33,707 nt of DNA from Flavobacteriaceae bacterium (GTDB lineage Bacteria; Bacteroidota; Bacteroidia; Flavobacteriales; Flavobacteriaceae). The stretch covers positions 1 through 33,707 of the forward strand of contig JAQWJH010000112.1 of NCBI GenBank assembly GCA_029248455.1, given 5' to 3'. The position numbers were made by a program, and so were the translations under genes. The notes beneath the pieces were generated by a model. The model was not told the origin of the DNA, searched no databases, and worked only from the letters and a program-made list of their open reading frames with translations. This document shows, piece by piece, positions 1,486 through 33,707 of the stretch (the first letter of the stretch is position 1; each line of letters starts with the position of its first letter).

Positions 1486-3225
1486 ATGAAAACAAGAGCG
1501 ATAGTTCAGGCAAGAATGTTAAGTACTAGATTAAGAGGTAAATCCCTTATGTCAGTAACAGGCATTCCTATTTTATATAGAGTAGTAGAAAATATCAAAA
1601 AAATAGATTTCATTGATGAAATTGTAATTGCTACAACAAGTTTAGAAGCAGACAAACCTATAGTTTCAGCTGCACATGCTCTAAATGTAAAAGTATACCA
1701 AGGTAGTAGTTTAAATGTTCTTGACAGATACATTAAAGCATCCAGTGATATGAATGATGATGATTTAATAGTAAGGTTTACTGCTGACAATCCTATTGTC
1801 ATAAAAAGTATTGCTGAAGAATTACATGAGAAAGCAAAAAATAAAGACTACGTAGCTATTGAAAACCTATCGCATTTAGTTCCAGAGTTTATCAAAGTAA
1901 ATGCATTGAGAAAAGTTAAGGAAATATCTGATGACCCAATCGACATTGAACACGTAACTCCATTTTTCAGAAGAAAAGAAGGAAAGTCATTATTTGATGT
2001 TGAATTATTACCAAATGATTATTCTAGTTTAAGACCTGAATTGGATAAATATTTAACGATAGACACTGGAAAAGATTTAGTAAGACTTGAGAAAGTATTT
2101 GATGGGATAAAAAAAGAAAATGACCTTGATGAAATTTATAGCTTCATTGACCATAATATAAATACAGGTTTAGAATCTGAAGTACCTACAGTGAATCTTG
2201 ACGGAACTGTTCTTGGAGAAGGATTTCCAACATATATTATTGCTGAAATAGGTCAAAACCATAATGGATCTATTGATTTAGCAAAGAAACTAATAGACAT
2301 GTCAAAAAGATGTGGAGCAAGTGCTGTGAAATTTCAGAAAAGAGATATTCCTTCTGAATTAACAAAAGAAGCATTTGATCGCGTTTACGATAACCCAAAC
2401 TCCTTTGGGAGAACATACGGAGAGCATAGAATGTTCTTAGAATTATCAGAAGAAGCACATAAAGAATTAAAGGAATATTGTGATTTAATAGGAATGACGT
2501 ATTTCTGTACACCCTGCGATGTGCCATCGGTAGAACTTTTAGAACGTATTGGATGTCCATTTTTTAAAGTTGCCTCTAGAGATTTGACCAATATTCCGTT
2601 ATTAGAGAAGCTAGGCTCTATAGGAAAACCAGTTATTATTTCTACAGGAATGGCTTCCATTGAAGATATAGATGTCGCTATTGAAACTTTACAATTACCA
2701 AAAAATAAGCTTGTTATAACCCAATGTACATCTCAATATCCGTGCGATGTTAGAAATGTGAATCTGAGAGTTATGGCTACCTTGAGAGATAAATATAAAG
2801 TAAATGTTGGATTGTCAGATCATACCTCTGGGGTGATTATTTCTTCAGCAGCAGCAGCAATTGGCGCTCCTGTAATAGAAAAACATGTCTCTTTAGATAG
2901 GACGATGAAAGGTACAGACCAACCTGGGTCACTTGAAGAAAGCGGTTTACATAAGCTAGTTGATTACATTAGAGCTATTGAATTGGCAATGGGAAGTGAT
3001 TTGAAAGAAATAAACCCAGCTACAAAAGCAGCCAAAGAGAAACTTGCAAGAAGTGTAACATCCAAAAGAGATATTAAAAAGGGAGAAGTATTAACAGATG
3101 ATATGCTTTGTTTGAAATCACCAGGAACTGGTATTAAATGGAACGATAGAGAAATAATTTTAAACAAAAAAGCATTACTAGATATACCAGCTGATGTAAC
3201 CTTAGAAACATCTAATTTTGAGTAA
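1486..3225 (+). CDS. Fusion protein: SpsF-like cytidylyltransferase domain (N-term) + NeuB/SpsE-like nonulosonate synthase with SAF domain (C-term)
   Basis: N-term QARMLSTRLRGKSL...RFTADNPI resembles the SpsF QARMGSTRLPGK family; C-term IAEIGQNHNG, KFQKR, CTPCDVPSVELLERIGCPFFKVAS, STGMAS, GLSDHTSG, IEKHVSLD, then SAF-like RSVTSKRDIKKGEVLTDDML. Confidence 0.88.
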   Translation: MKTRAIVQARMLSTRLRGKSLMSVTGIPILYRVVENIKKIDFIDEIVIATTSLEADKPIVSAAHALNVKVYQGSSLNVLDRYIKASSDMNDDDLIVRFTADNPIVIKSIAEELHEKAKNKDYVAIENLSHLVPEFIKVNALRKVKEISDDPIDIEHVTPFFRRKEGKSLFDVELLPNDYSSLRPELDKYLTIDTGKDLVRLEKVFDGIKKENDLDEIYSFIDHNINTGLESEVPTVNLDGTVLGEGFPTYIIAEIGQNHNGSIDLAKKLIDMSKRCGASAVKFQKRDIPSELTKEAFDRVYDNPNSFGRTYGEHRMFLELSEEAHKELKEYCDLIGMTYFCTPCDVPSVELLERIGCPFFKVASRDLTNIPLLEKLGSIGKPVIISTGMASIEDIDVAIETLQLPKNKLVITQCTSQYPCDVRNVNLRVMATLRDKYKVNVGLSDHTSGVIISSAAAAIGAPVIEKHVSLDRTMKGTDQPGSLEESGLHKLVDYIRAIELAMGSDLKEINPATKAAKEKLARSVTSKRDIKKGEVLTDDMLCLKSPGTGIKWNDREIILNKKALLDIPADVTLETSNFE

Positions 3226-12157: not shown

Positions 12158-13789
12158 ATGAATAATAAATTTAAAATAGGACTTTTAATTTCTAATAACG
12201 ATTTAAGCTGCAGTAATTACAATTTAATTGATTCCCTGTCAAAAAATAAGGATATTGAAATAATTGTGCTTTATTCTAAATTATCAAAAAATAAGGAAAA
12301 ATTTTTTAGAAAATATATTTTAAAATTAACTAGGAAAAAAATTAATGCATTGTTTTTTCATTGTATAATAACAATTGAAAAATATATATTTAAATTAATT
12401 TATAAGAACACAGAAAATACATATGATTTAAAGACTTTAAATTTAAAAACTATATTTATCAATCCTGTTTTTTCAAAATCAGGATTATTTATAAGTTATG
12501 ATGAGAAAAATATTAAAATATTAAAAAATCTATCTTTAAACTTGATTATAAGGGTTAATACACCTGGTATTTATAAAGGAGATATACTAAATGTATCTAA
12601 AATCGGCATATTATCATTTCATCATGGAGACAACAATTGGAATAGAGGCGGCCCTGCTGCTTTTTGGGAGGTTTATAAAAAGAAAGATGCAACTGGTTTT
12701 ATAATACAGTTATTAACTTCTGAATTAGATGCAGGAAAAGTTATATGTAGAGGAGAATACATGACAAAAGAGTTTTATTATACTAATAAACAGAAATTAT
12801 TAAATGACTCTTACTATCACATGGAAAAGGTAATAAATAATATAATTGCTGGAAATAAAATTAAGATTGAAGATCAATACCCCTTTGATGGTGAAATATT
12901 AAAGATCCCAAATTTCAAAATAACATTTCATTATTTTGTTTTATTTATTTTAAAATTATGTAATAAAGCTTTCAGGAAATTATTTCCAAAACAAAGAATT
13001 TGGTCTATTTATTTTAGTAGAACAAGTTTTAAAAATTTAAAATTTAAGAAAGCTATTAAAATAAAAAATCCAACTGGTAAATGGTTTGCCGATCCTTTTG
13101 TCTATAAATTTAAAGAATCTTCATTTATATATTTTGAAGAGTTTAATGTAAAAGACAATATTGGATCAATTTCATGTATTGAACTGTTAAATGATAATTC
13201 TTACAAATATCTTGGCCAAGTTGTTAAAGAAAAATTTCATCTTTCATATCCTTTCTTGTTTGATTTTAAGGGCGTAATTTATATGGTGCCTGAGTCATCA
13301 AAAGACAATTCTATAAGACTTTACAAATGTGTGTCTTTTCCTTTGAAATGGACTTATCAATATAATTTAATGGATAATATTAATGCCGCTGACACAAATA
13401 TATTTTTCCACGATAATAAATATTGGCTGACTACAAACGTAGATCCAACAAATAAAGGAGACCAGAACTCGATTTTAAATTGTTATTATTCTGATAGTCC
13501 AATTTCTAAAGAGTGGATTGAGCACAATAATAATCCAATACAGTTCAGAAATGGCGCAAGAAATGCAGGTTATGTAAATAATAAAAACATCAAAATCAGT
13601 CAAAAGTTTTCATTTAATGAATATGGAAAGTCTTTGGAAATTTCAGAAATAGAGGAATTGAATATTAATAGTTATAAAGAAAAGAAGCTTCACGAAATTC
13701 ATCCAAAATTTTTTAAGAATGCTATTGGAATTCATCACCTTTCGTCTAATGATGAATACACGGTTTTTGATGTCAAAAGTTACAAGTAA
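12158..13789 (+). CDS. Two-domain protein: divergent formyltransferase-like N-terminus + GINT1-N-like (glucosamine inositolphosphorylceramide transferase type) C-terminal domain
   Basis: N-term ILSFHHGDNNWNRGGPAAFWEVY...TGFIIQLLTSELDAGKVICRGEY; C-term GKWFADPFVYKFKESSFIYFEEF...YPFLFDFKGVIYMVPESS...AADTNIFFHDNKYWL. Confidence 0.7.
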   Translation: MNNKFKIGLLISNNDLSCSNYNLIDSLSKNKDIEIIVLYSKLSKNKEKFFRKYILKLTRKKINALFFHCIITIEKYIFKLIYKNTENTYDLKTLNLKTIFINPVFSKSGLFISYDEKNIKILKNLSLNLIIRVNTPGIYKGDILNVSKIGILSFHHGDNNWNRGGPAAFWEVYKKKDATGFIIQLLTSELDAGKVICRGEYMTKEFYYTNKQKLLNDSYYHMEKVINNIIAGNKIKIEDQYPFDGEILKIPNFKITFHYFVLFILKLCNKAFRKLFPKQRIWSIYFSRTSFKNLKFKKAIKIKNPTGKWFADPFVYKFKESSFIYFEEFNVKDNIGSISCIELLNDNSYKYLGQVVKEKFHLSYPFLFDFKGVIYMVPESSKDNSIRLYKCVSFPLKWTYQYNLMDNINAADTNIFFHDNKYWLTTNVDPTNKGDQNSILNCYYSDSPISKEWIEHNNNPIQFRNGARNAGYVNNKNIKISQKFSFNEYGKSLEISEIEELNINSYKEKKLHEIHPKFFKNAIGIHHLSSNDEYTVFDVKSYK

Positions 13790-13844: not shown

Positions 13845-14399
13845 ATGAAAAAAATAATTGTAAAAATACTTTCTGTTATAATTTCTTTTGAGGATTATCT
13901 GATACAAAATTTTATAATGCATATGCCTATAATGAAAATAAGATATATAGTACTTAAGTTAAAATTTAAATCTATCGGAAAAAATACGAGTTTTCTTATG
14001 GGTCTTGGGTATAGGAATCCAAAAAATATTGTCATTGGTTCAAACACAGTTATAAATAAAAATGTATTGTTGGATGGAAGAGGAGGTAAATTAATTATTG
14101 GTAACAATGTTGATATTGCTCAAGAAACAAATATTTGGACTCTGCAGCACGATCCAAATTCTAACTCACATAATTCTATTGGAGATAATGTAACAATTGA
14201 AGATTATGTGTGGATTGCATCTCGTGTCACTATTTTACCGGGTGTCAAAATAGGTAAGGGGGCAGTTATAGCTTCTGGAGCTGTTGTAACAAAAAATGTT
14301 TCTAATCTAACAATCGTTGGAGGAATACCTGCAAAAAAAATTGGAATCAGAAAAAATAATTTAAGTTATAGTTTAAATTATAAGCCTCTATTCAAATAA
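13845..14399 (+). CDS. Hexapeptide-repeat acyltransferase (LbH, WbbJ-like)
   Basis: IVIGSNTVINKNVLLDGRGGKLIIGNNVDIAQETNIWTLQHDPNS...DYVWIASRVTILPGVKIGKGAVIASGAVVTKNV left-handed beta-helix repeats. Confidence 0.9.
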   Translation: MKKIIVKILSVIISFEDYLIQNFIMHMPIMKIRYIVLKLKFKSIGKNTSFLMGLGYRNPKNIVIGSNTVINKNVLLDGRGGKLIIGNNVDIAQETNIWTLQHDPNSNSHNSIGDNVTIEDYVWIASRVTILPGVKIGKGAVIASGAVVTKNVSNLTIVGGIPAKKIGIRKNNLSYSLNYKPLFK

Positions 14400-19776: not shown

Positions 19777-20866
19777 AAATATACTATTTGTTGGCGCTTT
19801 CAATAGCAGAAAGACTAAAAATTTAATCGGAGGTCAATTGTTTGCTTGTGAATCACTTTTAGAATCTTATCTTTCTCAAAAATATAATTTTATTAAATTA
19901 TGTACATCGCAAAGAAGCATTCCTCCCCCAAATATTTTAATTAGAATTTTTGATGCATTAATTAGGATTCTAACATTATTAAAAATATTGATGTTAAACA
20001 AAATTGACATTGTACTTGCTTTTACTACCAGTGGATTTGGATTTATAGAAAAAGGTTTAATGATTATAATTTGTAAAAAATTCAATATCAAAACTATTCT
20101 ATTCCCTCGATCCGGTCTAATGGTAAATGATATGAAAAATTCAAACTTTCAAAACTATCTAAAATATGTACTTAAAAGCACAAATGTTTTAATAACCCAA
20201 GGGGAATCATGGTTAGATTTTTATAAGAAATATAATAATAATAATAATACCATTATTAAAGTTCAACAAAACTGGATTAATCATAAAAAATACCGATTTA
20301 TAAATAGAAAATTTGATAAAAAAGAATTAAACATTTTATTTTTAGGCTGGATAACAGATGAAAAAGGAGTGTTTGACTTATTATTAGTTTTTAAAGCCAT
20401 CATCCAAAAAACACAAGGGTTTACTTTAAATTTGTTGGTAGCAGGTATGGGGAGAGACTATATATTATTAAAAAACAAGATTGAAGTATTTAAATTAAGA
20501 AATAGAGTTAACTTGTTAGGTTGGGTTAATGGAGAGGATAAGCTAAAATTATTACAAATGACCGATATATACGTATGTCCATCATATTTTGAAGGTCTTC
20601 CAAATTCTTTATTAGAAAGTATGGCTAGTGGCATTCCCTCAATTTCAACTAATGTAGGAAGTATTTCTGATGTTATTTCTCATGGACACAACGGATTTTT
20701 ATATGATCCAGGGGACAATAATAAACTAGAATCATTACTTTTTAATCTTATAAATGATATTGATTTGAGAGAAAAATTTTCAAAAAACTCAGTAAGTCAT
20801 ATTAATAGCAATAATACCATTAAAATTGCTAGTGAGATGATGGATAACATCTTTTGTAAAATCTAA
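19769..20866 (+). CDS. Glycosyltransferase family 4 protein
   Basis: NILFLGWITDEKGVFDLL, VCPSYFEGLPNSLLESMASGIPSISTNVGSISDVI. Confidence 0.87.
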   Translation: MSKNILFVGAFNSRKTKNLIGGQLFACESLLESYLSQKYNFIKLCTSQRSIPPPNILIRIFDALIRILTLLKILMLNKIDIVLAFTTSGFGFIEKGLMIIICKKFNIKTILFPRSGLMVNDMKNSNFQNYLKYVLKSTNVLITQGESWLDFYKKYNNNNNTIIKVQQNWINHKKYRFINRKFDKKELNILFLGWITDEKGVFDLLLVFKAIIQKTQGFTLNLLVAGMGRDYILLKNKIEVFKLRNRVNLLGWVNGEDKLKLLQMTDIYVCPSYFEGLPNSLLESMASGIPSISTNVGSISDVISHGHNGFLYDPGDNNKLESLLFNLINDIDLREKFSKNSVSHINSNNTIKIASEMMDNIFCKI

Positions 20867-20870
20867 ATCA

Positions 20871-21830
20871 ATGGCAAATAATTCTATTTTACAAAAATTA
20901 ATGGGATCTTCATTTCATGTTGAAATGGTTATTAGAAGAATATATTGGTCTAAAATTACTCAGTTCATAAGAAAAAGATTTGTAGTTACTGATTTAGGCA
21001 CAAAAAAATCAACTATAATTAATCTTGAAAATATTAATAATCATTTAAAAAAAATTGGCCTTAAAAAAGGAGATATATTAATAGTTCATTCGTCTTTTAC
21101 TCCATTTGAAAATTCAGGTATATCACCTTTTGATATAATTAATATGCTTTTAGACCTTGTTGGAAAAGAGGGTACTTTGGTAATGCCAGTAATTCGTTCA
21201 CATGAAAAGTATAAAAAAAATAAAAATATAAAAAATGATAATTTAGAAGTAGTAGAGTTCGAATATAATGTTAAAAAGTCACCAGTTAGAACAGGAATAA
21301 TTCCATTTTATCTGATGAATAAAAAAAATGCAATTACAAGCTTAATACCATTTAATACAATTACTTCTATTGGGTCAGAGTCAAAGCAAATGATTAAAGA
21401 TGAACTATTAGATAAATTTCCAACTCCCAATGGAATTAATTCACCATGGAAATATTGTACTGACAGAAATGCATTAGTTATTTCATTGGGTATTGATTTG
21501 ACACACAATTTAACTATTCTTCATACTCCAGAGGATGTAATGAATGAAAATTGGCCTGTAAAAGATTGGTACAGAAAAAGAAAATTTAAGATTACAAATA
21601 AAGACTTTGTTTTAACAAAAACCTTTAAAGAAAGAAAGCCTGATTGGGGAAAACTACATTTTGGAGAAAGAACTCTTGCTAAAGACCTATTGGCGGAGAG
21701 CATAATGAATTCAGTTTCCATTGACGGAGTATTGTTAGAAAGCTTGAGGTCTAAAGATCTTTTTAATTATTTAAATTCAAGAAATCATAGTGGTTACCCT
21801 TATTTTTGGATAAAAAAACATTTAAAATGA
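20871..21830 (+). CDS. AAC(3)-fold (Antibiotic_NAT) N-acyltransferase, probably acting on an amino sugar
   Basis: GDILIVHSSFTPFENSGISPFDIINMLLDLVGKEGTLVMPVI, SPVRTGIIPFYLM, FPTPNGINSPW, LVISLGIDLTHNLTILHTPEDV. Confidence 0.8.
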   Translation: MANNSILQKLMGSSFHVEMVIRRIYWSKITQFIRKRFVVTDLGTKKSTIINLENINNHLKKIGLKKGDILIVHSSFTPFENSGISPFDIINMLLDLVGKEGTLVMPVIRSHEKYKKNKNIKNDNLEVVEFEYNVKKSPVRTGIIPFYLMNKKNAITSLIPFNTITSIGSESKQMIKDELLDKFPTPNGINSPWKYCTDRNALVISLGIDLTHNLTILHTPEDVMNENWPVKDWYRKRKFKITNKDFVLTKTFKERKPDWGKLHFGERTLAKDLLAESIMNSVSIDGVLLESLRSKDLFNYLNSRNHSGYPYFWIKKHLK

Positions 21831-22897
21831 AAATAATTAATGGATTAAAGTCACTAATAATAAATAAAAATGAATTAGTGTTAAGTAATTTACATGGATT
21901 ATATATTTATGATTTGATTACAGAAAGTTTAAAAAAAATCTATAATTTTAAATATACTCTAAGATCAATAATATCTTGTCTTTCAAGACCTCTAAGAAGG
22001 TTGTTACGTGAGGACATTTCTTTGGCAATTCTAGAAGACAATGAAAATATTTTATATGTAAAAAATAAAAAAATAACTTCTTTGAACATATTAAGCTCAA
22101 CTATTAATTACGAAATTAAATTACCTAGGGGTTCAAGGCCACTAAACTTATTAAAAATTGAATCAAATGAAAACTTTGATAAAGGCATATATTTTGGAGA
22201 ATATTTTAGTAATCCGGAGAAAAATAAGGTAGATGTTTTTAAGATTGAAAATGGAAATTTAAATTCAGTATTCACTTTTAAAGAAAATACTATTAATCAC
22301 ATACATAATCTTGTTGTTGATCACAATAATAACTGCATATGGATATTAACAGGTGATTTTGGCAGTGGCGCCGCTATATATCAAGCTACAGATAATTTTA
22401 AAACTGTAAAAAAAATTGTCGGAGGATTACAGAAGTTTAGGTCTTGCGTAGCTTTTCCAACTAATAAGGGTTTACTGTATGCTACAGACTCACAATTTGA
22501 GCCTAATAATATTAGAATTTTACATGAACAGAACAATAATTGGATAGATAATAATATTAATAAAATTAATGGTCCGTGTATTTATGGGACTTCTGTTTCT
22601 GATAAATTCTATTTTTCGACATCAGTTGAAGCTATTAATACAGGAAATTTATTTAGTAAATTAGTAAGAAATAAAAGAGGTCCTGGAATAATTAAAAATC
22701 AAAGTGAAATTGTGTGTGTAAATTCTGAAGGAAATATTAGTACAGTTTATGAAAATAAAAAAGATAAATTGCCTTACATACTTTTTCAATTTGGTAATAT
22801 ATTGTTTCCTAATGGAACAAATAATACTAATAAGTTGGTATTTACACCAATTGCATTAAAATCAAATGATTTTGACACTATAATTATGGATTTATAA
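21827..22897 (+). CDS. Uncharacterised protein, possibly beta-propeller-like; no signal peptide
   Basis: ATG at 21827 overlaps the upstream TGA (ATGA). Repeated strand-like blocks such as GLYIYDLITESLKKIYNF, GKGIYFGEY-like and GLLYATDSQFEPNNIRIL suggest a propeller, but no family was recognised. Confidence 0.6.
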   Translation: MKIINGLKSLIINKNELVLSNLHGLYIYDLITESLKKIYNFKYTLRSIISCLSRPLRRLLREDISLAILEDNENILYVKNKKITSLNILSSTINYEIKLPRGSRPLNLLKIESNENFDKGIYFGEYFSNPEKNKVDVFKIENGNLNSVFTFKENTINHIHNLVVDHNNNCIWILTGDFGSGAAIYQATDNFKTVKKIVGGLQKFRSCVAFPTNKGLLYATDSQFEPNNIRILHEQNNNWIDNNINKINGPCIYGTSVSDKFYFSTSVEAINTGNLFSKLVRNKRGPGIIKNQSEIVCVNSEGNISTVYENKKDKLPYILFQFGNILFPNGTNNTNKLVFTPIALKSNDFDTIIMDL

Positions 22898-22907
22898 ATT
22901 TAAAAAA

Positions 22908-23192
22908 ATGGAAAAAAACGAAAAAATTATTAATTTTTTGGAAGAATTTTTAACGGAAGAGTTAGATGAAACTATCAAACTTTCGTTAGATTCAAAATTG
23001 TTTGGAGGAGGGGGGCCTCTGGATTCAATGGCCTTAGTGACCTTAATTGTTGAGTTAGAGGAATTTCTTGAAGATGAATATAATGTTAATATAACATTAG
23101 CTGATGAGAAAGCGATGTCAAGAAGAACAAGTCCTTTTTCAAGAGTAAGTTATTTGATTGATTATCTAAATGAAAAAATAAACAATGAATAA
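22908..23192 (+). CDS. Acyl carrier protein
   Basis: 94 aa, acidic; GGGGPLDSMALVTLIVELEEFLEDEY with the DS(M/L) phosphopantetheine-attachment motif. Confidence 0.82.
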   Translation: MEKNEKIINFLEEFLTEELDETIKLSLDSKLFGGGGPLDSMALVTLIVELEEFLEDEYNVNITLADEKAMSRRTSPFSRVSYLIDYLNEKINNE

Positions 23193-23880
23193 AAAAATAT
23201 ATTTAATAACCGGTGATAGAAAAGGAATAGGAAGAAGTCTATCAGAATATTATTTATCAAAAGGTCATTTAGTAATTGGTTGTAGTAGATCAGGGTCTGA
23301 TTTAGTTCACAAAAACTATGACCATAAAATATGTGATGTGGCAGACGAAAATGCAGTAAAGTATTTAGTTTTATTTATTAGAAAAAAACACAAAAGAATT
23401 GATGTTTTAATAAACAATGCTGGAATGGCTTCTATGAATCATATTTTGACTACACCTGTTATTACATTTCAAAAATTAGTTGATACGAATTTTAAAGGAA
23501 CATTTTTGTTTATTAGAGAGGGATCTAAAATTATGAGAAAAAATGGTGGTTGCATAATAAATTTTTCGACAGTTGCTTCTCCACTCAATTTAGAAGGTGA
23601 AGCAATTTACGCTAGCACCAAAGCAGCAATTGAAAAACTAACAAAAATTTCAGCTCACGAATTAAGTTCATTTAACATAAGGGTAAATTGTATTGGACCA
23701 ACTCCTGTTCTCACAGATTTAATAAAGGCTGTGCCTAAAAATAAAATTGAAAAACTTCTTTCAAGTCAAGCAATAAAGAGGTTAGGAAGATTTGATGATG
23801 TTAAAAATGTAATTAACTTTTACTGCTCGGAAAAAAGTAATTTTATAACTGGTCAAACAATCTTCTTAGGTGGAGTCTAA
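23185..23880 (+). CDS. SDR family oxidoreductase (FabG-like)
   Basis: LITGDRKGIGRSL, NNAGMASM, NFSTVAS, YASTKAAIEKL, RVNCIGPTPVLTDL, TGQTIFLGGV; 8-nt overlap with ACP. Confidence 0.87.
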   Translation: MNKKIYLITGDRKGIGRSLSEYYLSKGHLVIGCSRSGSDLVHKNYDHKICDVADENAVKYLVLFIRKKHKRIDVLINNAGMASMNHILTTPVITFQKLVDTNFKGTFLFIREGSKIMRKNGGCIINFSTVASPLNLEGEAIYASTKAAIEKLTKISAHELSSFNIRVNCIGPTPVLTDLIKAVPKNKIEKLLSSQAIKRLGRFDDVKNVINFYCSEKSNFITGQTIFLGGV

Positions 23881-23892
23881 ATTTTTATATTT

Positions 23893-25239
23893 ATGGTAGA
23901 TATATTTTTAAATAAACTTAAAAAAATACCCTCGAACAAACAGGCTATTATTTTTAATTCAAAAACACATTCTTACGGAGAATTATTAATTAAAATAAAT
24001 GATTGTTATAATATTATATTAGACGCTTTTGATCATAAAAAAGTAGTTGTTATTTTAGGTGATTATTCATTTAGTTCAATAGCTATTCTTTTTGCACTTT
24101 GTAAACATAAATGTATTTTCATACCTATTATTTCTGAAAATGAACAAGAAATTAAAAAAAAAATAGAAGTTTCAAATCCTGATTATATAATTGAATCTAG
24201 TTCTTTTCAAATAACATCTTTAAAAGGAAACAATCATTCTCCTAACTCTTATTATGATGATTTATTTAATTCGAATAAATCAGGTTTAGTATTATTTAGT
24301 AGTGGAAGCACCGGAAACCCCAAAGCTATGGTCCATGATTTTGATAATCTAATTTCTACATATAATGTAAATAAAATAAAGAATCTAAATTTTCTTGTTT
24401 TTCTTCTTTTTGATCATATTGGTGGTCTAAATACGATGTTAAATATTCTATCAATGGGATCCACAATGATTATTCCCGAGAAGAGAGAACCCGAATCAAT
24501 TGCCAAATTGATAAAAAAATTCAAAGTTAATATCTTCCCATCTTCCCCTACATTTTTAAATTTGATGAACATAGGAGGGATTTTCGAAAATTATGATTTA
24601 TCCTCATTAAAATTAATTACATATGGAACTGAACCTATGTCTGAAAATTTATTAAGTATTTTAAAAAATAAACTACCTAAAACAAGATTAATTCAAACCT
24701 TTGGCACGAGTGAAACAGGGATAATTAAAACGAAAAGTAAATCCTCAGAAAGTTTACTACTTAAGTTTGAAGATAATAATCAAGAAATTAAAATAATGGA
24801 TGGTGAACTTTGGATAAAAAGTAAAACAAGGGTTTTAGGATATATCAATCACGATAATAATTCTTTTACAAAAGACGGATGGTTTAAAACCGGAGATTTA
24901 GTTGAGGAAAGGGAAGATGGGTATTTAAAAATAATTGGAAGAAAAAGTAAAGTTATCAACGTAGGCGGGGAAAAGGTTTTACCAATTGAAGTTGAAGAAG
25001 CTATTTTAACTCTTGATTTTGTTTTAGACTGTACAGTGTATGCCAAAGAAAGTCTTATAACTGGCCAAGCTGTTGCAGTAAAAGTGGTAGTTAAGTCTTT
25101 GATCCTAGATATTAAACAAATCAAAAAGAATATAAAATTACATTGTAAAAAGACTCTTGAAAGGTATAAAGTACCAGTTGAAATAATAATAACTGACAAA
25201 ATAAATTTTACATCCAGATTTAAGAGAAAATTAGACTAA
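23893..25239 (+). CDS. AMP-dependent acyl/aryl synthetase (ANL superfamily ligase)
   Basis: LVLFSSGSTGNPKAMVHDFDNL (P-loop), FGTSETGII, WFKTGDLVEEREDGYLKIIGRKSKVINVGGEKVLPIEVEEAI. Confidence 0.9.
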   Translation: MVDIFLNKLKKIPSNKQAIIFNSKTHSYGELLIKINDCYNIILDAFDHKKVVVILGDYSFSSIAILFALCKHKCIFIPIISENEQEIKKKIEVSNPDYIIESSSFQITSLKGNNHSPNSYYDDLFNSNKSGLVLFSSGSTGNPKAMVHDFDNLISTYNVNKIKNLNFLVFLLFDHIGGLNTMLNILSMGSTMIIPEKREPESIAKLIKKFKVNIFPSSPTFLNLMNIGGIFENYDLSSLKLITYGTEPMSENLLSILKNKLPKTRLIQTFGTSETGIIKTKSKSSESLLLKFEDNNQEIKIMDGELWIKSKTRVLGYINHDNNSFTKDGWFKTGDLVEEREDGYLKIIGRKSKVINVGGEKVLPIEVEEAILTLDFVLDCTVYAKESLITGQAVAVKVVVKSLILDIKQIKKNIKLHCKKTLERYKVPVEIIITDKINFTSRFKRKLD

Positions 25240-25247
25240 TTACTATT

Positions 25248-25264
25248 ATTCAAATCATTTGAAT
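25248..25264. promoter_or_regulatory. Short near-perfect palindrome ATTCAAAT-C-ATTTGAAT in the longest intergenic gap
   Basis: 8-nt arms around a single C, within the 105-nt gap 25240-25344; function unknown. Confidence 0.3.
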
Positions 25265-25344
25265 TATTACTCTAAAATTTAATTAAATAAATTAAGAATA
25301 TAACTAAACACAAAATATAATTATAACTCTTTTTTAAATAATAC

Positions 25345-27459
25345 ATGAAACAAATACTACAATCGTTTAAAACAGGGGTTACAGAATTAGCTGAGTTACC
25401 CTCACCGAAGGTAAAATCAGGTCAACTGTTAATAAAAACAACACGAAGCTTAGTATCATTGGGTACAGAGCGCATGTTGGTAGAGTTTGGTAAAGCATCT
25501 TTGATACAAAAAGCTAGGCAACAACCAGAAAAAGTGAAAATGGTTTTAGATAAAATTAAGAGCGAAGGTTTAATACCAACAATAGAAACGGTTTTTAATA
25601 AACTAGAACAACCCTTGCCATTAGGCTACTGTAATGTTGGAGAAGTTTTGGCAGTTGGTAAAGGCGTAACAGATTTTAAAGTAGGTGATAGAGTTGCTTC
25701 TAATGGACAGCATGCGGAGTTTGTCTCTGTGCCACAAAATCTGGCCGCACATATACCAGATAATATTTCTGATGAAGAAGCTGCTTTTACGATTATAGGC
25801 TCTATTGGTTTACAGGGTATTCGTTTGGTAAACCCAACAATAGGAGAAACGGTTGTAGTTATAGGTTTAGGACTTATAGGGCTTTTAACTGCAGAAATGT
25901 TAGTGGCAAATGGTTGTAAAGTAATTGGCTACGATTTAGATGATGCTAAAGTAGAAATTGCAAAAAGCAAAGGAGTAATTGCATTTAACCCATTAAAAGG
26001 AATTGATCCTGTTAAATTTGTACAAGAAAACACAAACGGAATTGGATCAGATGCGGTATTAATTACTGCATCTGCAAAAACAAATGAAATTATATCTCAA
26101 GCTGCTAAAATGAGTAGAAAAAGAGGTAGAATAGTTTTGGTTGGCGTTATTGGATTAGATATTTCTAGAGCAGACTTTTATGAAAAAGAATTAAGTTTTC
26201 AGGTATCTTGTTCTTATGGCCCAGGAAGATATGATGATGGTTATGAATTTAAGGGAATAGATTATCCATTACCATTTGTAAGATGGACAGAAAAAAGAAA
26301 CTTTGAAACAGTATTGCAGCTTATCTCTTCAGAAAAACTTAAAGTAAAAGAATTAATTTCTGAAGTTATCCCCATTGAAGAGTATGATAAAATTTACGGC
26401 AATATCGGGAATTCAAAATCAATTGCTTCAATTATAAAATACAACGAAAATAATACTCCGAAGCATACAATTGTCATCAATAAAAAAGAGAATACCCCAA
26501 CAAAAGGTGGTATAGGAATCATAGGTGCGGGTAACTTTACAAAGATGACAATGTTGCCAGCTTTAAAAGGAACCAATGCAAATATTAAGCATATTGTTTC
26601 TTCAGGTGGAGTTAATGGAACAGCATTAGCACAAAAGTATAATATTTCTCAAAGCACTACAGATTACGATTTAGTGTTAGATGACAAAGAGGTAGATTTA
26701 GTGATGATTACTACTCGTCATAATCTGCACGCTGAAATGGTAATCAAAGCATTAGAAAAAGACAAGCATGTTTTTGTTGAAAAACCTTTAGCTTTAAATA
26801 ACGAGGAGTTAGCTGCTATTGAGGCATCTTATAGTAAGAATAATGGTACATTAATGGTTGGTTTTAACCGTCGTTTTTCACCACATATTCAGAAAATAAA
26901 ATCATTAGTTAGTAATGCACCTATAAATATTGTAGCAACAATGAATGCGGGTGCAATACCGTCAGAATTTTGGGTTCATGACATTGCAATTGGTGGAGGA
27001 AGAATTATTGGTGAAGCGTGTCATTATTTAGATTTAATGGTCTTTTTGACAGGAAGTAAAATAGAAGCTGTTTGTACGAATGCTCTGGGAAAAAATCCAT
27101 CGGAAAATACAGACAATGCCTCTATTTTAGTAAATATGGAAAATGGTTCTACAGGAGTTGTAAACTATTTTGCTAACGGTGCAAAATCATACGCAAAAGA
27201 ACGTTTGGAAGTTTTTTCTCAGGGAAAAGTTTTTATAATGGATAACTTTATAAAGACTTCAGGTTTCGGGGTAAAAGGTTTTTCAAAATTTAGAACAAAA
27301 ATCGATAAAGGACATAAAGCACAATTTGGTCAAATAGTAGAGAAGATAAAGCAAGGTTCTGTAGAATTAATACCTTATGAAGAGTTAATAAATGTAACTA
27401 AAGCAAGTTTTGCAGCAATAGAAAGTTTAAAAGAAGGTTCTTGGGTAACTATTGAATAA
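25345..27459 (+). CDS. Bi-domain oxidoreductase: zinc-type alcohol dehydrogenase-like N-terminus + Gfo/Idh/MocA C-terminus
   Basis: PLGYCNVGEVLAVGKGVTDFKVGDRVAS, VVVIGLGLIGLLTAEML, then second Rossmann GIGIIGAGNFTKMTMLPAL, VFVEKPLAL, GGGRIIGEACHYLDLM. Confidence 0.9.
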   Translation: MKQILQSFKTGVTELAELPSPKVKSGQLLIKTTRSLVSLGTERMLVEFGKASLIQKARQQPEKVKMVLDKIKSEGLIPTIETVFNKLEQPLPLGYCNVGEVLAVGKGVTDFKVGDRVASNGQHAEFVSVPQNLAAHIPDNISDEEAAFTIIGSIGLQGIRLVNPTIGETVVVIGLGLIGLLTAEMLVANGCKVIGYDLDDAKVEIAKSKGVIAFNPLKGIDPVKFVQENTNGIGSDAVLITASAKTNEIISQAAKMSRKRGRIVLVGVIGLDISRADFYEKELSFQVSCSYGPGRYDDGYEFKGIDYPLPFVRWTEKRNFETVLQLISSEKLKVKELISEVIPIEEYDKIYGNIGNSKSIASIIKYNENNTPKHTIVINKKENTPTKGGIGIIGAGNFTKMTMLPALKGTNANIKHIVSSGGVNGTALAQKYNISQSTTDYDLVLDDKEVDLVMITTRHNLHAEMVIKALEKDKHVFVEKPLALNNEELAAIEASYSKNNGTLMVGFNRRFSPHIQKIKSLVSNAPINIVATMNAGAIPSEFWVHDIAIGGGRIIGEACHYLDLMVFLTGSKIEAVCTNALGKNPSENTDNASILVNMENGSTGVVNYFANGAKSYAKERLEVFSQGKVFIMDNFIKTSGFGVKGFSKFRTKIDKGHKAQFGQIVEKIKQGSVELIPYEELINVTKASFAAIESLKEGSWVTIE

Positions 27460-27477
27460 TTTTTTCTTGAGAAACAT

Positions 27478-29358
27478 ATGATAAATAAAATAAAGAGAAT
27501 AACAAACTTCATTTCTAATATGGGAATGAGGTATATCTTTTTTAGAGTTTCTTACTTAATTAAGACCAAGATGGGGCGGCAAAAAAAAGCTTTTCCCACA
27601 AATCCTGATTTTAAAAAATATATTAGCTTACAAGAATGGAAAGATAATTTACTCCCATTTTTTTTCTATGGAAAGGAAATAAAAGGGCTACAAAAACATC
27701 CTTCCGAAGATTTAAAAAAGAACTTAGAAGACCTGAAAAAAGGCATATATACTTTTTTTAATAAAACTAAAATTGGTTTGGGGGTTGATTATGATTGGGT
27801 AACAAACCCATTAACAAATTATAAATATAATATAAATACACATTGGTCAAAAATAGAAGATTTATCTTCAGAGGCTGGGGATATTAAATACGTATGGGAA
27901 AAAGCTCGTTTTTCTTTCTTATACGATGTTATTCGATATGATTATCATTTCGAAGAAGATCAATCTCAATTTGTATTTGAGCAGATTGAAGATTTTATTG
28001 ATAACAATCCTATAAACCAAGGTCCAAACTACAAGTGTAGTCAAGAAATTAGTTTGAGAATACTAAACTGGACGTTTGCATTTTATTACTACAAAGACTC
28101 AAAATATCTAACGGAAGCATTGTTTGCTAAAATTATGCACACAATTTATTGGCAAATACACCATGTTTATCATAATATTCATTTTTCAAGAATTTCAGTA
28201 AGAAATAATCATGCAATTACTGAAACTTTGATGTTGTATTTATCAGATAAATTATTTCCTTTTTTTCCAAATGTAAAAGGTTGGAGTAAGAAAGGTAAAT
28301 ATTGGTTTGAACAAGAGATAAAATATCAGATTTATCCCGATGGAACGTTTTTACAGTTTTCTATGAATTACCATAGAGTTGCTGTTCAATTATTAACCTG
28401 GGGTATTAAGCTAGCCAAATTAAACGATGATGTATTTGATTCACAAGTCTATGATCGAGCTAGGAAATCTCTTATTTTTTTAGATGCTTGTACTGATACT
28501 ATTTCTGGAAAGCTGCCAAATTATGGATCAAATGATGGGGCATTATTCTTTAAATTATCCGACGATGACTATCGAGTTTACCGATCACAATTAGATGATT
28601 TAAGGGCAGTTTTAGATGGATTTACAAATTACAATTCTAAAAGTTCTTTTTGGTATGGAATTCAGCCAGAAAACATAGAGCCTAATAAGATCTCAGAACT
28701 TAATGAGTTTAAAAATAGTGGTTATTATATTATCCAAGAAGAAAATACAAAAACTTTTATTCGATGTGGATCTTATAATGATAGACCTTATCAGTCAGAC
28801 AATTTACATTTGGATATTTGGGTTGATGGAGAAAATATTTTAAGAGATAATGGTTCTTATAAATACAATACGGATAAACAATTGTTAGAATACTTTACAG
28901 GATCAGAAGGTCATAATACTCTTAGTATAGCAAATAAAAATCAAATGCAAAAAGGTGGACGTTTTATTTGGTATTTTTGGGTTAAATACGCTGAAGCATT
29001 TTTAAAGAAGGAAAAAAATAATTTTAGCTTCTCAGGTAGAATAAAAGGTTATAAACAATTAGGAAATAATATTTTTCATCAACGAAAAGTAATTAAAGCT
29101 TTTGGTAAAAATGAATGGTTAGTTGAAGATAAAATTGAAGGAATAAAAAACCAGATAAATTACCAATATTGGCATTTTCCAATAGATTTAAAAGAGAGAA
29201 TTAGCATATCTTCTGTTGATGAAAATAATACTATTTTAGAGCCATATATTGAACAAAAATGGTATTCAGGTTATTATGGAGTGAAAGAATCATCATTAAG
29301 ACTTTCATTTGCATCGAAAACAAATATATTTAAAACAAAAATTACCTTTACTGTATGA
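27478..29358 (+). CDS. Heparinase II/III-like / alginate lyase family protein, no evident signal peptide
   Basis: NNHAITETLMLYL, YPDGTFLQFSMNYHRV, LPNYGSNDGALF, HLDIWVDGENILRDNGSYKYN..., GSEGHNTLSI. Confidence 0.83.
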   Translation: MINKIKRITNFISNMGMRYIFFRVSYLIKTKMGRQKKAFPTNPDFKKYISLQEWKDNLLPFFFYGKEIKGLQKHPSEDLKKNLEDLKKGIYTFFNKTKIGLGVDYDWVTNPLTNYKYNINTHWSKIEDLSSEAGDIKYVWEKARFSFLYDVIRYDYHFEEDQSQFVFEQIEDFIDNNPINQGPNYKCSQEISLRILNWTFAFYYYKDSKYLTEALFAKIMHTIYWQIHHVYHNIHFSRISVRNNHAITETLMLYLSDKLFPFFPNVKGWSKKGKYWFEQEIKYQIYPDGTFLQFSMNYHRVAVQLLTWGIKLAKLNDDVFDSQVYDRARKSLIFLDACTDTISGKLPNYGSNDGALFFKLSDDDYRVYRSQLDDLRAVLDGFTNYNSKSSFWYGIQPENIEPNKISELNEFKNSGYYIIQEENTKTFIRCGSYNDRPYQSDNLHLDIWVDGENILRDNGSYKYNTDKQLLEYFTGSEGHNTLSIANKNQMQKGGRFIWYFWVKYAEAFLKKEKNNFSFSGRIKGYKQLGNNIFHQRKVIKAFGKNEWLVEDKIEGIKNQINYQYWHFPIDLKERISISSVDENNTILEPYIEQKWYSGYYGVKESSLRLSFASKTNIFKTKITFTV

Positions 29359-31569: not shown

Positions 31570-32215
31570 TAATAATACACATATTGTTTTTGATTTAGAT
31601 GATACCCTCTTCAAGGAGATTGACTTTGTTAAATCAGCATATGTCTATATTAATAGTTATATTAATTCTAGATTTAATATAGACCTTTCAAAAAACATTA
31701 AAAAGTGTTTATCCGGTGAAGTTAATTTTTTTGATCTTATTAATTCGAAATTGCATCCAGATCAGAACTTTCCAATTGAAAAATATTTAGAACTTTATCG
31801 TTTTCATTACCCTGAAATCAAGTTGTCCAAAGATACTTCTGTTTTTTTCGAAAAGATTTTGAGTCACAATATAGATTTTTCAATAATAACGGATGGTAGG
31901 TCTATTTCTCAGAGAAATAAAATAAAAGCTCTAGGTTTATATGATCAAGTAAAAAATATAATTATTTCAGAAGAGACAGGGTTTGAAAAACCACATTTTA
32001 ATAATTTTAAAATATTAAATCGTATTTATTCAAACAAAAAATTAATTTATATAGCAGATAATACTTCTAAAGATTTTTTAGCCCCAAATTCTTTAAATTG
32101 GGATACTATATGTTTAATAAATAATGGGCAAAATATTCACCCACAAGATTTTAATTTAAGTATTGATTATTTACCAAAGATAAAAGTAAATTATTTAACA
32201 GAAATAAATATATGA
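31562..32215 (+). CDS. HAD family hydrolase
   Basis: HIVFDLDDTLFKEIDFV, SIITDGRSISQRNKIKALGL, EKPHFNNFK, LIYIADNTSKDFL. Confidence 0.85.
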   Translation: MIDNNTHIVFDLDDTLFKEIDFVKSAYVYINSYINSRFNIDLSKNIKKCLSGEVNFFDLINSKLHPDQNFPIEKYLELYRFHYPEIKLSKDTSVFFEKILSHNIDFSIITDGRSISQRNKIKALGLYDQVKNIIISEETGFEKPHFNNFKILNRIYSNKKLIYIADNTSKDFLAPNSLNWDTICLINNGQNIHPQDFNLSIDYLPKIKVNYLTEINI

Positions 32216-33360
32216 TACCATTATCAGTACCAAATATTGACGGAAATGAATGGCAATATGTTAAAGATTGTCTCGATACTGGATGGATTTCCTCTGCTGG
32301 AGCCTATGTTACTAAATTTGAAGAGGCTATTCAAAATTATACAGGAATAAAATATGCAATAGCTTGTATGAACGGAACAGCTGGTTTACAAGTTTCTTTG
32401 AATCTTGCGAGAGTCACCAACAATGATATTGTAATAGCACCAAACTTAACCTTTGTAGCTACACTTAATGCGATTACATATTCAGGTGCGCAAATAGCCT
32501 TGATAGATGTTTGTGAAGATTCTTGGCAAATGGATGTTGATTTACTTCAAAGATGGCTAGAGGAAAATACAATAACAACAGTTGATAATGGAAAAACAAT
32601 AACTACAGAAATAATATCAGGAAAAAAAATCGGTGCAATCATGCCAGTTTATGTTTTAGGAGGATTTATCGATGTTGACAAATTAATAGAAATCAGTGCT
32701 ACTTATGGTATTCCTTTAATAGAAGACAGTACAGAGGCACTAGGAAGTTTCAAAAAGGGAAGGCATGCAGGAACATTTGGTTTAACTGGTGTTTTAAGTT
32801 TTAATGGTAATAAAATAATTTCTACTGGTGGTGGTGGAATGATTTTAACAAATGATAAAGAAATTGCCAACAGAGCAAAACACATTACAACAACTGCTAA
32901 AACGGATCCTTTAGATTATTTTCATGATGAAGTAGGTTATAATCACCGCTTGGTAAATGTTCTTGCTGCTATTGGGGTTGCACAAATGGAAAACTTTGAA
33001 AGCATCCTGAAAAGAAAAAAAGAAATTGATGCCCTTTATAGAAGTGAACTATACGGAGTTGGAGATATTAAATTTCAGGAGAATGATCCTAATTCAAATC
33101 CTAATTGTTGGTTATTTACCTTTCGTACAAAAAGAATGAGAAGCTTGCTAGAATATTTAAACAAGAATGAAATACAAAGTCGTCCGTTTTGGACTCCAAT
33201 GAATAATCTTCCAATGTATAAAGATTTAATGTATATCAATAGTAATGATATATCAAATAAAATATTTAAAGAGTGTATTAGTATTCCCTCTTCATCGAAT
33301 TTAACAACTGAAGATCAACATAAAGTGATTTCAGAAATTAAAAAATTTTACGAAAAATGA
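32212..33360 (+). CDS. legC: DegT/DnrJ/EryC1 PLP aminotransferase, LegC-like
   Basis: IPLSVPNIDGNEWQYVKDCLDTGWISSAGAYVTKFE, ACMNGTAGLQVSL, EDSTEALGSF, SFNGNKIISTGGGGMI (PLP Lys). Confidence 0.82.
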   Translation: MIPLSVPNIDGNEWQYVKDCLDTGWISSAGAYVTKFEEAIQNYTGIKYAIACMNGTAGLQVSLNLARVTNNDIVIAPNLTFVATLNAITYSGAQIALIDVCEDSWQMDVDLLQRWLEENTITTVDNGKTITTEIISGKKIGAIMPVYVLGGFIDVDKLIEISATYGIPLIEDSTEALGSFKKGRHAGTFGLTGVLSFNGNKIISTGGGGMILTNDKEIANRAKHITTTAKTDPLDYFHDEVGYNHRLVNVLAAIGVAQMENFESILKRKKEIDALYRSELYGVGDIKFQENDPNSNPNCWLFTFRTKRMRSLLEYLNKNEIQSRPFWTPMNNLPMYKDLMYINSNDISNKIFKECISIPSSSNLTTEDQHKVISEIKKFYEK

Positions 33361-33707
33361 TGTTACCAAATATTTCCGAGTTTATTAAGAATTATGTAAC
33401 CAAAAGAAAAAATAGTTTTTTCTTGAATGACTTGATTAACAACAAAGAAAAACTAACTCTAGAAATTAAAGGAAAATCTATTTTAGTTATAGGTGGTGCA
33501 GGAACTATTGGGTCATCATATATCAAGGCTGCACTTAGATATCATCCCTCTGAATTAATTGTTGTTGATACTAATGAGAATGGTTTAACAGAATTGACTC
33601 GTACACTTAGGAGTGATTCTAGTATAATAGTTCCTGCACCACCTATAACTAAAATAGATTTTCCTTTAATTTCTAGAGTTAGTTTTTCTTTGTTGTTAAT
33701 CAAGTCA
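33357..33707 (+). CDS. LegB/CapD-like nucleotide-sugar dehydratase, N-terminal fragment truncated by window end
   Basis: ATGATG at 33357; MMLPNISEFIKNYVTKRKNSFFLNDLI...GKSILVIGGAGTIGSSYIKAALRYHPSELIVVDTNENGLTELTRTLRS; frame open to window end. Confidence 0.75.
   Translation, partial: MMLPNISEFIKNYVTKRKNSFFLNDLINNKEKLTLEIKGKSILVIGGAGTIGSSYIKAALRYHPSELIVVDTNENGLTELTRTLRSDSSIIVPAPPITKIDFPLISRVSFSLLLIKS

Follow-up and report, generated by a model that had tools for sequence, protein, structure and literature searches.

Acyl carrier protein (ACP)-linked N-acylation of O-antigen amino sugars is already established in outline. In Flavobacterium psychrophilum, a 3,5-dihydroxyhexanoyl group is carried on the 4-amino group of Qui2NAc4N; the O-antigen R-group genes wfpC-wfpG, which serve this step, encode ketosynthases, a reductase, an ACP and a transferase of the PglD type (PMC6519341). 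Vibrio cholerae O1 acylates perosamine with tetronate (wbeL region; PMC3441752). Here we analyze a five-gene cassette in a 33,707-nucleotide stretch of Flavobacteriaceae DNA (contig JAQWJH010000112.1, hereafter the window), derived from a 1.55-Mb metagenome-assembled genome (MAG) that is 73% complete. The F. psychrophilum locus likewise has a dedicated ACP and a ketoacyl-ACP reductase, but it uses ketosynthases and a PglD-type hexapeptide transferase where the window uses a ligase and an AAC(3)-fold acyltransferase with a predicted β-propeller. In V. cholerae O1, too, amino groups are acylated with a hydroxy acid from dedicated locus genes. Genes of that locus other than wbeL presumably fill the ACP and ligase roles, and we take its dehydrogenase and transferase types to differ from those in the window. 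The DltA-DltC pair shares with the cassette an ANL ligase and a small carrier; no DltB or DltD is seen in the cassette, the window ligase is nearer to acyl-CoA/MenE-type enzymes than to DltA, and a short-chain dehydrogenase/reductase (SDR) is added. The window differs from the F. psychrophilum and V. cholerae systems in priming by a ligase, in a transferase of the AAC(3) fold and in the propeller that partners it. Gene order, folds and motifs were established by computation, as were the conserved linkage of AAC(3) with the propeller and the ACP and ligase genes that recur nearby. From these we infer, with a probability of about 60%, that in a surface-polysaccharide locus the AAC(3)-propeller pair transfers a carrier-bound small acyl or hydroxyacyl group onto an amino sugar. 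The five genes are as follows.

20871..21830, + strand: AAC(3)-fold (Antibiotic_NAT) acyltransferase (Pfam PF02522, 2.8e-24; HSS at 73-75, His218, Glu221)
21827..22897, + strand: orphan, predicted β-propeller (AF2 and Foldseek; no Pfam or NCBIfam family above cut-off)
22908..23192, + strand: dedicated ACP with phosphopantetheine Ser40 (DltC-like, 1.9e-6; motif at 39-44)
23185..23880, + strand: FabG-like SDR (adh_short_C2, 3.1e-43; YxxxK at 142-146, NNAG at 77)
23893..25239, + strand: ANL (AMP-forming) ligase (AMP-binding, 2.9e-30; AMP-binding_C, 1.6e-9)

At five loci the AAC(3)-fold and orphan genes stand side by side or with a single gene between them. These are the window, a Segatella copri plasmid (L037), a Bacteroidetes MAG (L060), a "Gallicola" bin (L078) and an Oscillospiraceae MAG (L080). 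Each new locus was located with one partner as the probe, the other then being seen beside the probe match. When plasmids were searched by tblastn with the AAC(3) protein as query, the Segatella plasmid was the single match; its order is ligase-ACP-AAC(3)-alanine racemase-orphan relative, the last annotated as 'hypothetical protein' and 37.5% identical to the window orphan. A profile search with AAC(3) across 295 Bacteroidia genomes yielded L060, in which the orphan overlaps the AAC(3) gene, and a scan of 84,980 species with the orphan alignment yielded L078 and L080, in both of which the orphan and AAC(3) are neighbours. That scan was run with a single pattern and gave four loci, so the count of five pairings is small. 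L078 is a 4.2-kb contig with a neighbouring gene 70% identical to a zinc-alcohol-dehydrogenase (Zn-ADH)/GFO fusion in the window, so its assignment to "Gallicola" (Bacillota) may be a binning error and the contig is likely from Bacteroidota. In trees, the orphan-linked AAC(3) proteins form one clade (support 100/99), a degree of clustering reached by none of 500 label shuffles, and the orphan is present at 0 of the 19 other AAC(3) loci. The AAC(3)-linked orphans likewise form a clade (99/98), with L090 as the single exception, and no AAC(3) gene was found beside distant orphan relatives. The first-pass annotation of the window had placed the orphan outside any pathway of this kind; instead, its partnership with the AAC(3)-fold protein is conserved, and the five pairings rule out an accidental insertion. 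As a separate observation, the K-antigen operon of Porphyromonas gingivalis W50 has an 'aminoglycoside 3-N-acetyltransferase' just before a hypothetical protein (PMC8003790, Table 2).

The window AAC(3)-fold protein scores 86.4 bits against the Antibiotic_NAT gathering score of 25, and profile comparison matches it to BA2930, YokD, FrbF and AAC(3) enzymes. Its AF2 model (predicted local distance difference test score, pLDDT, 71) is closest to AAC(3)-IVa and FrbF, at TM values of about 0.6-0.75 in Foldseek, with BA2930 also among the top matches. The fold is accompanied by the HSS motif and by a catalytic-type His in a T-x-x-H-x-x-E context, where His218 and Glu221 align with the family and are invariant in the alignment (A8). 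Against the NCBIfam equivalog for aminoglycoside AAC(3) resistance, the protein reaches 60.2 bits, with 270 needed. Relative to AAC(3), FrbF and BA2930, it has an extra N-terminal helical segment and C-terminal end, in addition to its carrier-protein neighbours and propeller partner. In the second AAC(3)-fold clade (L030, L031 and L061-L077), an unassigned gene encoding 330-380 residues adjoins AAC(3) in 16 of the 19 loci (L030:7867-10318, - strand; L031:8144-10634, - strand). Its representative in L030, gene X, encodes 378 residues and is without a Pfam or NCBIfam family; a reading of X as polysaccharide deacetylase-like had no support from either database. With the orphan in one clade and relatives of X beside 16 of the 19 AAC(3) genes in the other, AAC(3)-fold proteins of the window kind seem to travel with a partner that differs by clade. 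A conserved, unassigned gene of 144-149 residues is also adjacent in L030 and L031.

For the orphan itself, profile searches of Pfam and NCBIfam returned no family above cut-off. Its AF2 model is a β-propeller (pLDDT 81; predicted TM score, pTM, 0.85) and no signal peptide was recognisable by inspection. Against known propeller enzyme families there was no Pfam, NCBIfam or PDB match, and Foldseek returned generic propeller folds only, so that an enzyme of a known family was rejected as a candidate. Strictly conserved polar residues of the orphan family are the HxH at 158-160, D165, D177, Q202, R205 and D221. Distant relatives adjoin heparinase II/III-like genes (L011-L013), a glucuronyl C5-epimerase gene (L014) or glycosyltransferase genes, neighbours that mark the wider family as a polysaccharide-locus protein with one branch tied to acyltransferases. 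Two other origins were considered and set aside: PADLOC gave no match of note to a defence system, and for phage origin there was a single weak match, a member of the distant orphan group, on an unverified faecal 'phage' scaffold carrying polysaccharide genes. Scans of viral contigs returned no match.

The three remaining genes form an acyl-supply set. The ACP keeps the DS(M) motif with Ser40, and the MAG encodes one candidate phosphopantetheinyl transferase. In the SDR the TGxxxGIG, NNAG and YxxxK motifs are intact; the protein scores 147 bits against 296 for the FabG-type 3-oxoacyl-ACP reductase equivalog, with the catalytic motifs present. The ligase has the P-loop at 136, the A5 motif at 269, the hinge at 349 and the C-terminal Lys-containing motif at 443, with TFGTSE and TGDL intact. 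Neither protein of the carrier-ligase pair falls within the Dlt D-alanylation equivalogs (DltA, DltC): the ACP reaches 27.8 bits against 68, and the top matches of the ligase are not DltA-like. The ACP-SDR-ligase order recurs in L030, L033 and L035, from three distant Bacteroidota genomes, with ligase identities of 37-41% and SDR identities of 55-57%, the latter far exceeding generic SDR similarity. In L030 the full order is AAC(3)-X-ACP-SDR-ligase, which is the window order except that X takes the position of the orphan. Looser sets of ACP, SDR and ligase are found in L032 and a Rhizobium plasmid (L038), and in L015 and L017 the ACP, ligase and SDR are flanked by a PglC-type sugar transferase on one side and by a hexapeptide transferase with an aminotransferase on the other, as would be expected of a locus that N-acylates a 4-amino sugar. 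The genes that follow the trio vary, being a PglD-type transferase in L035 and a hexapeptide protein and halogenase on the Rhizobium plasmid. On that plasmid (L038:8893-16516, + strand) the ACP, SDR, ligase, hexapeptide protein and CmlS-annotated halogenase lie together, which suggests a halogenated carrier-bound acyl group. In L034 (7067-9152, - strand) an ACP of the window class adjoins an FkbH-domain protein (TIGR01686, 255 bits vs 147), a different loading enzyme.

A lack of correlation between these genes in homologous loci would have counted, by the first-pass annotation's own refutation test, against its reading. The outcome was in favour: at five loci besides the window (L030, L031, L037, L062 and L080), ACP, ligase and/or SDR genes adjoin AAC(3)-fold genes. 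ACP-SDR-ligase sets without AAC(3) occur in L033, L035 and L038, and L060 has an AAC(3)-orphan pair without ACP and ligase. This comparison supports a division of the cassette into an acyl-supply module and a transfer module as separate, combining units. Comparative evidence therefore favours the acyl activation and transfer system that had been proposed, while the idea of a single five-gene unit gives way to two modules. The supply beside the pair also differs between loci. The window has ACP-SDR-ligase; Segatella has a DltA-like ligase and ACP with an alanine racemase, which suggests an alanyl group; L080 is ordered orphan-AAC(3)-ACP-citrate-type transporter-ligase, where the transporter suggests an imported carboxylate; and L060 carries a MaoC hydratase, which suggests a hydroxyacyl-coenzyme A (CoA). 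For the window, the SDR makes a 3-hydroxyacyl group the favoured acid.

At the level of the operon, the five open reading frames lie at the coordinates and with the couplings first described: a 4-nt ATGA overlap at 21827 between AAC(3) and orphan, a 10-nt gap from orphan to ACP, an 8-nt ACP/SDR overlap and a 12-nt gap from SDR to ligase. The acyltransferase, ACP, SDR and ligase were matched to recognised families, the ACP through its likeness to DltC. The cassette had also been called self-contained, yet its 5' edge is no boundary: a glycosyltransferase gene, which overlaps an asparagine-synthase gene, ends 4 nt 5' of the AAC(3) gene, so that an operon with glycosyltransferase and amidotransferase genes runs on. 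The sole clear gap (105 nt) separates the ligase from the fused alcohol-dehydrogenase/GFO gene, and no terminator-like sites were found in 20500-25600.

The window is a surface-polysaccharide locus, with a UDP-ManNAc dehydrogenase (above cut-off), a NeuB/cytidylyltransferase fusion, a flippase, glycosyltransferases, an O-antigen polymerase/ligase-type protein and a heparinase II/III-like protein. Three further features bear on the acceptor and on the choice of transferase.

32212..33360, + strand: LegC-family UDP-sugar 4-aminotransferase (TIGR04181, 436.6 bits vs cut-off 420)
33357..33707, + strand: 5' part of a Polysacc_synt_2 nucleotide-sugar 4,6-dehydratase gene (PF02719, 26.2 vs 20.2 bits)
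13845-14399: hexapeptide protein, a possible alternative transferase of the locus

The dehydratase gene is ATGA-coupled to the aminotransferase gene and is cut by the contig end. Given the above-cut-off aminotransferase and the partial 4,6-dehydratase gene, the locus could reasonably be expected to yield a 4-amino sugar linked to a nucleotide. The amino-sugar acceptor proposed in the first-pass annotation is on these grounds plausible. The polysaccharide locus thus holds both a dedicated ACP and an amino-sugar pathway, as ACP-dependent N-acylation would call for. A LegC aminotransferase is also found in the L060 locus (L093), and in Segatella one falls below the cut-off.

In the mechanism that we propose, the ligase would charge the ACP with a small carboxylic acid and the FabG-like SDR would most likely reduce, or set the hydroxyl on, the ACP-bound acyl group. 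The AAC(3)-fold enzyme and the predicted cytoplasmic β-propeller would together form the transfer module and move the carrier-bound acyl group. Its acceptor would be the amino nitrogen of a 4-amino-4,6-dideoxy sugar in nucleotide-activated form, and the LegC-type aminotransferase and the 4,6-dehydratase encoded near the window's right end most likely make that sugar. The propeller might assist, perhaps because it binds the acceptor or the enzyme.

Support for this mechanism comes from the three loci in which an ACP and ligase lie beside the AAC(3)-orphan pair (the window, Segatella and Oscillospiraceae), and further from the PglD-type N-acyltransferase that follows the trio in L035, the layout of L015 and L017 and the gene order of L030. 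The AAC(3)-orphan pairing with its single AAC(3) clade, the LegC aminotransferases and the F. psychrophilum precedent also speak for it. Several observations weigh against it. The ACP is below its Pfam cut-off (14.1 vs 20.8 bits). The orphan of L090, from the same clade, adjoins a GNAT (Acetyltransf_6) gene and not AAC(3). No ACP or ligase was detectable in about 58 kb around the L060 pair, so ACP use is not obligatory. Since the contig ends inside the dehydratase gene and the MAG is incomplete, a conventional PglD/LegH-type acetyltransferase could lie beyond the window. Alternatively, two unrelated functions might simply adjoin, the AAC(3)-propeller pair being a CoA-dependent acetyl- or acyltransferase and the ACP-SDR-ligase set feeding another transferase, such as the hexapeptide protein. 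The trios that lack AAC(3), and the L060 pair with a MaoC hydratase able to supply hydroxyacyl-CoA, are in keeping with such a split. It is improbable all the same, because the ACP directly adjoins AAC(3) in L037 and L080 and L030 repeats the order with X, and coincidence in three loci with different ligase types is unlikely.

The propeller could itself act on the glycan as a lyase, epimerase or glycosyltransferase, its linkage to AAC(3) reflecting a shared sugar residue. Its strictly conserved polar residues and the heparinase, epimerase and glycosyltransferase neighbours of distant relatives would fit a catalytic role; it is without a sequence or specific fold match to any known enzyme, however, and the close clade tracks the acyltransferase and not heparinase, leaving this reading rather unlikely. 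The point of attachment can also be questioned, in that members of the AAC(3) fold are encoded away from sugar loci as well (L030, L061-L077) and an asparagine-synthase-like amidotransferase lies in the same operon, both of which would suit a hydroxyl, uronamide, peptide or lipid acceptor in place of amino-sugar nitrogen. Characterised AAC(3)-fold enzymes, AAC(3) and FrbF, are N-acyltransferases, and with 4-amino-sugar genes present in the window we regard such an acceptor as quite doubtful.

The AAC(3)-propeller pair appears to be undescribed, no account of it having turned up in a literature search of partial coverage. More tentatively, and at somewhat less than even odds, the AAC(3)-fold protein and β-propeller may constitute a two-component, carrier-protein-dependent acyl/aminoacyl transferase class of Bacteroidota and Bacillota, with interchangeable acyl-supply modules (hydroxyacyl, alanyl and others) for decorating surface glycans. 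Aminoglycoside resistance is the routine annotation of AAC(3)-fold genes, and the Segatella copy carries the 'response to antibiotic' Gene Ontology term. If the proposal is true, a set of these genes would encode acyltransferases that act on glycans, draw on carrier proteins as donors and pair with a propeller that lacks annotation; an unnamed family would gain a function, non-acetyl N-acyl groups would be predicted on capsules, and a modular way in which surface glycans vary would be explained.

Other parts of the window held minor features. At 1486-3225 (+ strand) lies the cytidylyltransferase-NeuB-type synthase fusion; HAD, GFO and SDR genes come after it, and together they make an unusual set of the nonulosonic-acid type. 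The C-terminal half of the protein encoded at 12158-13789 (+ strand) contains a GINT1_N domain (Pfam 7.3e-38); by eye and by weak BLAST matches the N-terminal half resembles a formyltransferase, and the whole is possibly a further acyltransferase joined to a propeller-type domain. At 25345-29358 (+ strand) the Zn-ADH/GFO fusion gene is followed by the heparinase II/III-like gene; the fusion also lies downstream of the AAC(3)-orphan pair in L060 (64%) and L078 (70%).

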